A model generated the notes under the pieces. That model made no database searches. It was not told where the DNA came from and was given only the letters and a program-made list of their open reading frames with translations. From positions 1-64,000 of the forward strand of contig CALGMJ010000011.1 in NCBI GenBank assembly GCA_937958875.1: a stretch of 64,000 bases of DNA, read 5' to 3'. This document shows, in pieces, positions 5,871 through 53,414 of this stretch; within the stretch, counting starts at the first letter, position 1, and each line of letters opens with the position of its first letter. The position numbers and the translations under genes were made by a program. Source of the DNA: an uncultured Verrucomicrobiales bacterium (GTDB taxonomy: Bacteria > Verrucomicrobiota > Verrucomicrobiia > Verrucomicrobiales > Akkermansiaceae).

Positions 5871-8441
5871 TTAGTCCCCCGTTCGATAGACGATCCCCCC
5901 ATCCTTCAGCTCGGCAATAATGATGTCTCCTTCACTAAATTTCCCTTCCAAGATTTCCAAGCTGAGGGCATCGAGAAGGTGGTTCTGGATGGCTCGCTTT
6001 AAAGGACGAGCTCCAAAAATAGGATCGTAGCCTTGGTTTCCGATATATTCGACAACTTCGGGTGCTAACTTGAGGGTGAGCCCCTGCTTCGCTAAGCGCG
6101 CTTTGACACGCTCGAGTTGAAGTGAGACGATCCCCGCTAGCTCGGCACGATCGAGCCGGTCAAAGATGATTGTTTCATCAATACGATTGAGAAACTCGGG
6201 ACGAAAATGCGCTCTCAATGCTTCCGTCACTTTTACCTCTCGCTGTTCAGGATTCGATTCATCAATAATGAATTGGCTCCCGATATTTGAAGTCATGATG
6301 AGGACGGTATTTCGGAAATCTACCGTACGTCCCTGACCATCAGTGATACGTCCATCGTCAAGAACTTGGAGTAAGACATTGAAGACGTCAGGATGGGCTT
6401 TTTCGACTTCGTCGAAAAGCACGACTGAGTACGGTTTTCTTCTGACATGCTCACTCAGCTGCCCCCCTTGATCGTAGCCAACGTATCCGGGAGGCGCTCC
6501 GATGAGGCGTGAAACAGCATGTTTTTCCATATATTCCGACATATCGATTCGGATCATGGCGTCTTCAGAATCAAAGAGAAATTCCGCCAGTGCTTTTGAA
6601 AGCTCAGTCTTCCCCACCCCGGTAGGCCCGAGAAAGAGGAAGGAGCCGATGGGGCGATTTTCATCCTGAAGGCCAGCGCGAGCACGGCGGACGGCATTTG
6701 AAACAGCTTCGATGGCAGGGGTTTGACCAACGACTCGATCTTGAAGTCGCTCTTCCATACGCACGAGTTTCTCACGCTCACCTTCCTGCAGTCGGCTCAC
6801 AGGGATACCAGTCCAAGCCGCCACTACTTTTGCGATATCTTCCTCAGTGACCTCCTCTTTAAGCAGGCCGTCATCCTGCGATTTATGCGCAAGAGCTGCG
6901 TCGAGATTTCTCTCCGCCTCTGGGAGCGCTCCGTAGGTAATTTCAGAAGCACGCGTCAGATCTCCGAGACGCTTAGCCTGCTCAACCTCGGTGCGGAGAG
7001 AGTCGATCTCTTCCTGAAGAGACCGAAGTGAATCGATTGCTTCCTTTTCATTCCGCCAGCGAGCAACGAGAGAGGCGGACTCCTCTTTCACATTCGCCAT
7101 TTCCTCCAAGACCTTCGCAAGCCGTTTTGCTGAGGCTTCATCTGATTCTTTCTCAAGAGCCTGGCGTTCCATTTCGAGCTGAAGAATCTGGCGTTCAAGT
7201 TGGTCGATCTCGGTGGGCATGGAGTCCAGTTCGATCTTGAGACGTGAAGCAGCTTCATCGACAAGATCAACAGCCTTATCGGGAAGGAAACGATCTGAGA
7301 TGTAACGATCACTGAGAGTCGCTGCCGCGATAACGGCGCGATCCTGAATCCTTACTCCATGATGCAGCTCGTAGCGCTCTTTAAGGCCACGAAGAATGGC
7401 TACCGTGTCTTCTACCGAAGGCTCATCGACTTTAACTGGCTGAAAACGACGCTCCAAGGCGGCGTCCTTTTCGATGTATTGCCGGTATTCGTCGAGAGTG
7501 GTAGCTCCAATGGTGCGAAGCTCTCCACGCGCAAGCTGGGGCTTAAGAAGATTTGAGGCATCGACAGCCCCTTCACTCGCTCCAGCCCCCACAATAGTGT
7601 GAAGCTCATCAATGAAGAGGATAATCTCTCCCTGAGATTCAGTGACCTCTTTTAGAAAGGCCTTGAGGCGATCTTCGAATTCACCACGATACTTCGCTCC
7701 CGCAATCATCGCCCCTAAATCGACAGTGATCAGACGTTTATTTTTCATCGAGTCTGGCACGTCTCCGCTAACGATGCGACGAGCGAGCCCTTCCACGATG
7801 GCGGTCTTACCAGTGCCAGGTTCCCCTATGAGAACGGGATTATTCTTTGTCCGACGTGAGAGAACTTGAAGGATCCGACGAATTTCTTCATCTCGACCGA
7901 TGACCGGGTCGATTTTTCCCTCCCGAGCTTTCGCAGTCAGGTCTTGCCCATACTTTTCAAGCGTTTGGTATTTCTCTTCTGGATGATCATCGGTGACACG
8001 CTGAGAACCCCGAATCTCAGTCAGAGCACTTTCGAGAGACTTCAGACTCAGGCCATTTTCGACGAGAATCTTTCCCGCGGGGGAATCTGACCTCACAATT
8101 CCGATGAGGACGTGCTCGACGCTGAGAAAATCGTCCTGCATCTGCTCTCGGGCTTGCTCCGCCTCATCGAGAGCCTGTCTCAAGCCATAACTCATCTGCG
8201 GTTGAGAAACAGCTCCCTGAACTCGTGGCTCATTTTCTAAGGCTGAGGCAAGACTTGCCTTCAACTGAGTCAGCGGAACCTCTGCCCTCTCTAAAATCGG
8301 AACAACTATTCCCCCATCTTGCTGCAAAAGAGCGAGCAAAAGATGTGTTGTCCGTAATTCTGGATGAGCAGAACGTGTTGCGAGCTGTTGAGCTCTTTGG
8401 AGCCCTTCTTGTAACTTTGCGGTAAATTGATTTGATCCCAT
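5871..8441 (-). CDS. clpB: ATP-dependent chaperone ClpB
   Basis: Two AAA+ Walker A motifs ([20 protein letters not shown]), Clp N domain, middle coiled coil. Confidence 0.98.
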
Positions 8442-47812: not shown

Positions 47813-47915
47813 TTTCGAGAGAATTCTGGCATTAGACCAGATTTTATGTTTTCCATACTCGCGAGTGATACAGTTTGCATGCTGTTCACGAAAAACCGCG
47901 AATATCTTATCTATC

Positions 47916-48455
47916 ATGACGAACAAGAAACGCCTGCTAGTCATCATCCAGTTGTGGATGATCCTTTCATCAGTTTGTATGGCGAATTTTTCTGGAATCA
48001 AAATCAATCCAGATGGTTCAAATGTCTGCGGAGGAGCTTACCCCGGCTCTAGGAAAAATCCTGATGGAACCTTTGTTTGTGGGGGAGCTTTTGCCGGATT
48101 CAAGAAAAACCCTGATGGGACCTTTGTCTGTGGCGGCGCTTATACTGGATTTAAAAAAAATCCGGATGGAACCTTCGTCTGTGGCGGCGCTTATGCCGGG
48201 TTTAAGAAGAACCCAGATGGAACTTTTGTCTGCGGGGGAGCCTATACCGGATTTAAGAAAAACCCGGACGGCACTTTCGTCTGCGGCGGGGCTTTTTCAG
48301 GGGCGAAACAGAATCCAGACGGCACTTTCGTCTGCGGGGGAGCCTATACCGGCTTTAAGAAAAACCCTGATGGAACCTTTGTTTGCGGAGGAGCATATCA
48401 AGGAGTTCGAAAAAATCCTGATGGCAGCTTTGTCGTCGGATGGAAGAAGCAGTAA
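47916..48455 (+). CDS. Secreted tandem-repeat protein, eight 17-aa single-Cys repeats
   Basis: Signal peptide MTNKKRLLVIIQLWMILSSVCMA followed by NPDGTFVCGGAYTGFKK x8 plus a partial unit. Confidence 0.75.
   Translation: MTNKKRLLVIIQLWMILSSVCMANFSGIKINPDGSNVCGGAYPGSRKNPDGTFVCGGAFAGFKKNPDGTFVCGGAYTGFKKNPDGTFVCGGAYAGFKKNPDGTFVCGGAYTGFKKNPDGTFVCGGAFSGAKQNPDGTFVCGGAYTGFKKNPDGTFVCGGAYQGVRKNPDGSFVVGWKKQ
48006..48452 (+). repeat. 51-bp in-frame tandem repeat (8 units plus a 39-bp partial)
   Basis: Direct reading of aa(c/t)ccnga(t/c)gg... units. Confidence 0.95.
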
Positions 48456-48619
48456 GCTCAGATCACGCCACATAGATGCGGTGATCTTTCGGCGGCGCGA
48501 TCTCGCTAGGGCTCTCTTATTTTGGGGCACTGAAATATCGAAATCACGAAGTCATCCATCGCCGCTATCGATACGAATTCTAAGCTTTCATCAAAGACAT
48601 CTTCGAGCATACTTCTGAT

Positions 48620-52855: not shown

Positions 52856-53281
52856 TTAGCTGGACTTTTTCAACACTCCGCCAAGCTTCTTAGCAAAACG
52901 CTTTGGAGTGGTGCCACCGACAGCTTTATCAATCTTCTTACCACTAGGACTAACGAACTGGATGTGCGGGATTCCGCTGACTCCAAAATTCTGCGCTACC
53001 GCCGCATTCTTTTTCACGTCGGTATCGAGGTAAACCCATACAAAATCATCGTGATAAGGCTGAACCGCTTTACTTGGGTAAACCTTACTCTTATTTGCCT
53101 GACAAGGTGGGCACCAAGTCGCGGAGAAGACAACGAGGAGTGGCTTTTTCTTCGCCTTAGCCATCTTCATCGCAGCATTATAGTCAGTCTGAAACTTTGG
53201 GCTTCCCTCAGGAAAACTACCACCGAAAGCAACGGCAGTAAGAGCTGTGAGGGCCATGAGAATTGAGCTTAATTTTTTCAT
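52856..53281 (-). CDS. Secreted thioredoxin-family protein
   Basis: Signal peptide MKKLSSILMALTALTAVAFG; FSATWCPPCQANK; GVSGIPHIQFVSPSGK. Confidence 0.88.
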   Translation of the reverse strand: MKKLSSILMALTALTAVAFGGSFPEGSPKFQTDYNAAMKMAKAKKKPLLVVFSATWCPPCQANKSKVYPSKAVQPYHDDFVWVYLDTDVKKNAAVAQNFGVSGIPHIQFVSPSGKKIDKAVGGTTPKRFAKKLGGVLKKSS

Positions 53282-53414
53282 AATTGGGAACGTTTGTTCG
53301 AAGATAGGAACCACATCCCCCCATTCCTATTCCTAATTTTGACAAACTAAAATATTCACACAAATTTTGGAATATTTTCTAATGCCTTCCGGTTAACTCA
53401 TGACAATCAGTCAA

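Follow-up and report, generated by a model that had tools for sequence, protein, structure and literature searches.

A rare, unnamed family of 17-residue NPDG–Cys repeat proteins, predicted to stack as beta-solenoids

Short-unit solenoids and the repeat gene

In the RTX beta-roll and the beta-solenoids of insect antifreeze proteins, coils similar in length to the unit described here carry two or one short strands, and their side chains lie in in-register rows. MORN and MORN-like repeats are short beta-hairpins, rich in glycine and aromatic residues, and differ from a 17-residue unit in both length and motif. The choline-binding repeat consists of a hairpin of ∼14 residues and a linker of 6–7 residues, stacked as a solenoid (PMC4929436). 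A protein encoded within a 64-kb window (the whole stretch of DNA that was analysed) from an uncultured Verrucomicrobiales bacterium resembles the choline-binding repeats (Choline_bind_1, PF01473) in its tandem short units, predicted to be beta, and in its regularly spaced aromatic residues. Unlike them, its unit has 17 residues instead of ∼20, lacks the GW/WYY pattern and contains one Cys. A choline-repeat consensus scores 1e-28 on Choline_bind, whereas no Choline_bind Pfam model matched the window protein or the family consensus at E values up to 10; among solved choline-binding modules the best structural match was non-significant (E 0.07, TM-score 0.14). A search of the PDB by the choline-repeat consensus listed repeat-bearing bacterial toxins, and these were left out of the comparison. 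The window protein is also unlike the RTX and insect antifreeze solenoids in having one Cys per coil and neither a GGxGxD nor a TxT motif, and it gave no profile or fold match to either. No MORN model appeared in its Pfam scan at E values up to 10; two MORN-annotated viral proteins were among non-significant Foldseek matches.

Two groups of repeats from mobile elements provide a further comparison. Orf69 of phage 186 and proteins of small Klebsiella plasmids resemble the present family in consisting only of short units around PDG[ST]YVxGG, and the Klebsiella plasmid protein, like the window protein, runs from a signal-peptide-like start straight into its repeats. Their units (APDG[ST]YVGG) have 13–14 residues, however, and contain neither the Cys nor the GGAYTGFKK half. 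Both were found by tblastn with one family member, L063, at E values (4e-4 and 1e-6) that are inflated by repetition, and a unit-profile comparison made from a hand-made unit alignment gave a probability of 96 over 10 columns. The positions in common number only about nine, and PDG turns recur by convergence, such that kinship with these repeats is suggested at most. At the DNA level, Orf69 matched nothing in the E. coli genome collection, and a literature search for phage 186 orf69 returned no match. Two plasmid matches, from Paenibacillus and E. coli (H3 and H10), proved to be unrelated repeats.

The features of the gene are collected in Table 1, together with the family members and the compared repeats. 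The consensus unit of the window protein is NPDGTFVCGGAYTGFKK. Tandem Repeats Finder reported the array with a period of 51, 8.1 copies, no indels and a score of 348, the sole tandem array in the window. Along with the translated reading frame, this confirmed the layout given by the first-pass annotation, of eight 17-residue units with one in-register Cys each and a cap that lacks it. Small corrections were needed: unit 1 has diverged (NPDGSNVCGGAYPGSRK), the stretch from position 13 to 17 differs from the consensus in units 6 and 8, and a half unit, NFSGIKI, would open the mature chain. The signal-peptide-like start reaches a 10-residue Kyte-Doolittle maximum of 2.66 and contains an extra Cys, C21. 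An alternative frame of 201 residues (48013–48618, + strand) is open across the whole array and was rejected on its codon-position pattern. A whole-genome search found the gene in single copy in the source genome, which is 77% complete.

Table 1. Coordinates of the repeat gene and its features, with the family members and the compared PDG repeats
Feature	Source or sequence	Position	Strand	Remarks
Terminator-like hairpin	Window	47825..47841	+	Between DUF4340 gene and repeat gene; weak
CDS, all-repeat protein	Window	47916..48455	+	179 aa, stop included; ATG 47916, TAA 48455; frame backed by codon-position pattern and pN/pS
Signal-peptide-like start	MTNKKRLLVIIQLWMILSSVCMA	47916..47984	+	Presumed cut before NFSG; hydrophobic core and position relative to repeats
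N-terminal half unit	NFSGIKI	47985..48005	+	From sequence; same place as NYTSYQK (L048) and QYDGYKR (L049)
Eight 17-aa units	Window	48006..48413	+	51-bp register; one Cys each at unit position 8
Unit starts	Window	48006, 48057, 48108, 48159, 48210, 48261, 48312, 48363	+	
C-terminal cap, 13 aa	NPDGSFVVGWKKQ	48414..48452	+	Val for Cys; counterparts NPNGTYVVGWKMQTKQ (L048) and NADGSYSVGWGICNE (L049)
L046	Fusibacter bizertensis			12 units, last one truncated
L047	Prolixibacteraceae MAG			10 units
L048	Verrucomicrobiales MAG	7527-7839		Short, very uniform array; one extra base breaks frame
L049	Membranihabitans marinus			9 units and cap
L050	Bacteroidetes MAG			12 units
L063	Genome from the order of Membranihabitans			Trp at position 6, NPNGSWVCGGAFTGARQ; found by profile search
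Phage 186 Orf69	U32222, AAC34174.1	L067 519-770		Beside int and attP
Klebsiella small-plasmid repeat proteins	e.g. WP_202963179.1	L064 1441-1761; L065 1453-1734		Plasmid cargo

The gene lies between an ABC-2/DUF4340 cluster and a gene for a cyclic-nucleotide-binding-domain protein, and its neighbours are ordinary housekeeping genes. In two congeners that were inspected, the Crp homologue has different neighbours. Terminator-like sites in the region numbered three, compared with 0.9 ± 1.0 in shuffles, which is weak; no sigma-70-like promoter match was found at the gene, and the hairpin directly 3′ of its stop codon is no more stable than in shuffles (z −0.41). A thioredoxin-like protein with a CPPC motif is encoded ∼4.4 kb downstream (52856–53314, − strand).

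The first-pass annotation had recognized no named family, and database searches bear this out. Matches of the window protein to Pfam and NCBIfam were weak and below curated cut-offs, those to PHROGs arose only when summed over repeats, with single stretches all failing, and nothing significant was found in the PDB. Literature searches gave no match for the repeat peptide strings; a paper on the Knotted Solenoid concerns a different fold, found in Brevundimonas. In the relatives, Pfam scores above cut-off for NinF, GBP_PSP, Zn_ribbon_recom and zf-FPG_IleRS were dismissed as repetition artefacts, all single stretches being above E 0.01. For example, the model for insect GBP/PSP peptides (PF02425) reached 39.3 bits on L049 when summed over repeats, with every single stretch missing E 0.01, and 12.8 bits on the window protein against a curated cut-off of 25.

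Distribution and selection

The window protein alone, used as a query, found no locus among 85,462 species genomes, probably because exact peptide patterns such as KNPDGTFV are specific to the window copy. A degenerate pattern, NPDGx[FY]VCGG, identified five loci in the same genomes (L046–L050), every one of them multi-copy in the 51-bp register; the pattern required Cys and Phe/Tyr, and its counts cover the searched genomes only. The extra base in L048 may reflect either an assembly error or a pseudogene. Wider profile searches of 388 genomes from the phylum of the window (the source genome among them) and of further sets of 295, 291, 75, 87 and 396 genomes (each count includes the carrier serving as centre) gave no further members. 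Three patterns run against viral contigs yielded no member, the one candidate, L051, being a single chance match, and tblastn with L047 found no match in plasmids and phages. Low-complexity matches in relatives (L009–L015) and weak profile matches (L053–L055) were set aside, the repeat unit being absent in those that were read.

Seven or more genomes, from no fewer than three phyla, thus carry the 17-residue unit with its 51-bp period. These NPDG–Cys repeats are a real, rare, unnamed family, and their sparse distribution across phyla suggests horizontal transfer or repeated loss. No recognized homologue was found in 57 other relatives of the source genome, 26 of them of the same genus. The first-pass annotation had held that the lack of a homologous gene in relatives, together with frame-breaking changes, would speak against its description; the first part was observed, but intact homologues exist in other phyla.

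Comparison of the units within arrays shows selection on the protein. Between units of the window array, third codon positions vary at 17 of 17 sites, compared with six first and five second positions, and the proportions of differences (pS 0.80, pN 0.10) give a ratio of 0.13. The arrays of five relatives, which bring the number measured to six, gave pN/pS values of 0.14–0.24. In a control in which codons were exchanged among synonymous positions of the array, leaving the peptide unchanged, mean DNA identity between units was 0.725 ± 0.005; the observed value, 0.732, was reached by 177 of 2000 shuffles. The DNA-level memory of duplication is therefore almost gone, with the exception of units 5 and 7, which are identical at 46 of 51 positions. 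Since third positions are randomized and the peptide is kept, selection acts on the protein, and the window array is old. These results, among them the proposed comparison of dN/dS (run here as pN/pS and well below 1), support the earlier view that selection maintains the peptide, as opposed to the array being a product of recent slippage. Unlike the window array, that of L063 looks recently amplified, its units being nearly identical (mean 91.5%).

Predicted fold and the cysteine column

Structure prediction, one of the checks that the first-pass annotation recommended, agreed with the stacked solenoid that it had suggested. AlphaFold2, given an alignment of six family members, predicted a regular beta-solenoid for the window protein with a mean pLDDT of 83.6 (about 96 in the core, core blocks 92–97, pTM 0.72), and all five models fell within 82.0–83.6. 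Each unit is predicted to contain two three-residue strands, at positions 6–8 and 15–17; these may form stacked hairpins, as in choline-binding repeats, or flat coils with two sheets, as in the beta-roll. The same strand pattern was obtained with L050 as query, with a lower mean pLDDT of 71.4 and models ranging from 35.8 to 71.4. A regular beta-solenoid is thus moderately supported by the models; they come from one predictor and a six-sequence alignment, and predictors can over-regularize tandem repeats. Foldseek found no significant structural match in the PDB or BFVD, and its top, non-significant matches included choline-binding proteins (CbpF, LytC, C-LytA and Cpl-1) and glucan-binding enzymes.

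Across the seven proteins, 60 units were compared. All of them have N1, G4, G9, an aromatic residue at position 12 and [GS] at position 14 (60/60), and nearly all have an aromatic residue at position 6 (59/60), P2 and [TS]5 (58/60 each); Val or Ile occupies position 7 in 55 units, and Cys occupies position 8 in 53. Positions 16–17 are QR, QK, KK, KR or RQ. The family can be defined by the tandem pattern N-P-[DN]-G-[TS]-[YFW]-[VI]-[C/V/L]-G-G-x-[YF]-x-[GS] in the 51-bp register, and the window protein has both, along with a pN/pS well below 1. The remaining seven units, of which L046 has two and L049 five, carry Val or Leu in register in place of Cys 8, so that the family does not require an unbroken ladder of Cys or metal; the window protein, taken by itself, does have a Cys in every coil. 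In the main, the column probably serves for packing, and Val or Leu can take the place of Cys there. An association with position 11, where Ala or Ser is found in 52 of 53 Cys units compared with two of seven Cys-less ones (Fisher p = 2e-5, for units that are not independent), comes mostly from one protein and gives a hint only that the Cys may do something specific.

The family appears to exist in two forms. In the window protein, L048 and L049, the repeats follow a signal-peptide-like start without a gap ([NQ][FY]x[GS]), and a VGW cap closes the chain; if signal peptides are cut at that junction, the mature exported product consists of repeats only. L046, L047, L050 and L063 begin without such a start, and their proteins presumably stay in the reducing cytosol. 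The earlier description of the product as secreted is consistent with the signal-peptide-like start of the window protein and does not extend to these four of the seven members.

Possible roles of the repeat rod

The reading that we prefer, to which we give a probability of roughly 0.45, is that of a rare, unnamed, accessory family of all-repeat beta-solenoids that form a rigid structural or binding rod, with the Cys as a packing position. The family is probably new and horizontally spread. One and the same unit, seen in several phyla and subject to purifying selection in all six arrays for which this was measured, would stack as a beta-solenoid, its strands predicted to be joined by the NPDGT turn on one side and by GGAYTG on the opposite side. 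Export would use a signal peptide that is removed immediately ahead of the repeats, leaving a repeat rod with its VGW cap as the mature product. Such a rod may provide rigid structure or bind a ligand in the manner of a lectin or adhesin, displaying rows of aromatic and basic residues; its Cys column would serve mainly for packing, with Val or Leu tolerated, and the gene would spread as an accessory gene.

The first-pass annotation had offered, among other possibilities, a Cys ladder or a metal-binding or crosslinked surface polymer. In a reading of this kind, the in-register Cys of exported members make disulfides between neighbouring units or between rods, or bind metal, as their function. 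The Cys kept in all eight window units and the preference for Ala or Ser at position 11, which would suit a need for a small adjacent residue, are in its favour, and so are the CPPC thioredoxin-like gene downstream and the metal-transport P-type ATPase genes that adjoin L063, both of which could be coincidences. Against it, five of the seven units with Val or Leu belong to L049, which has the exported form, the four members without a signal peptide presumably meet a reducing cytosol, and the position 8–11 association comes from tandem units, mostly of one protein. As an essential feature of the family, a Cys ladder or metal polymer is weakened by these observations and rather unlikely to be the function; it is possible in the window protein itself. 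A broader form, in which a self-stacking rod with a continuous row of thiols, disulfides or metal is made both as a cytosolic and as an extracellular protein and its gene moves on its own from one phylum to another, is distinctly unlikely. Related proposals concern the surface and the fate of the units. Flat rows of Thr/Ser at position 5 and Val/Ile at position 7, in register on one face of the predicted solenoid, might bind ice, polymer or mineral; solved ice-binding proteins gave no match by fold or sequence, however, and Thr/Ser after NPDG is equally explained by the turn itself, leaving this very improbable. Still less weight is given to the earlier suggestion of a precursor, in which each unit would be a core that is cleaved out or modified to yield a small peptide. 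It would suit near-identical units, a constant Cys and a signal-peptide-like start, but is not supported: a limited scan of the window neighbours and of ten proteins around three other members recognized neither a maturation enzyme or peptidase nor a dedicated exporter, the members do not all share a dibasic or other cleavage motif, and the units are predicted to form one continuous fold.

The genomic surroundings of some members allow another interpretation, that of a mobile factor in conflicts with phages or other bacteria, carried as island, plasmid or prophage cargo, that would work as a decoy, an inhibitor or an immunity-like binder. Upstream of L063 (L074 489–6909) are genes for an integrase, an MmeI-type type IIG restriction enzyme, an RmrA-like HTH/M78 protein and a DUF1508 protein; around L050 (L075 8646–13497) are those for an AbiTii-domain protein and a KAP NTPase; and L046 is near an ATPase that matches Mads and Septu models. 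The PDG[ST]YVxGG repeats, which in phage 186 adjoin int and attP and in Klebsiella are carried by small plasmids, point in the same direction. However, defence genes are common in accessory regions generally, the kinship with the phage and plasmid repeats is at most suggested, viral contigs yielded no member with three patterns and the window gene sits among housekeeping genes, making such a role improbable. The surroundings of L063, L050 and L046 also fit the accessory gene of our preferred reading. As separate observations, the region upstream of L063 resembles a mobile or defence island, and a 270-residue protein is encoded directly downstream of the L050 repeat gene.

The window gene belongs to an unannotated repeat family in which a nearly fixed 17-residue unit is built around the commonest type I turn sequence, with a variable number of units and two apparent cellular locations. 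Should the solenoid prediction prove correct, the protein would be a natural repeat rod of a very simple kind that might serve as a design scaffold, and would be useful for understanding how repeats fold and spread, and how a protein stays uniform despite the divergence of its DNA.
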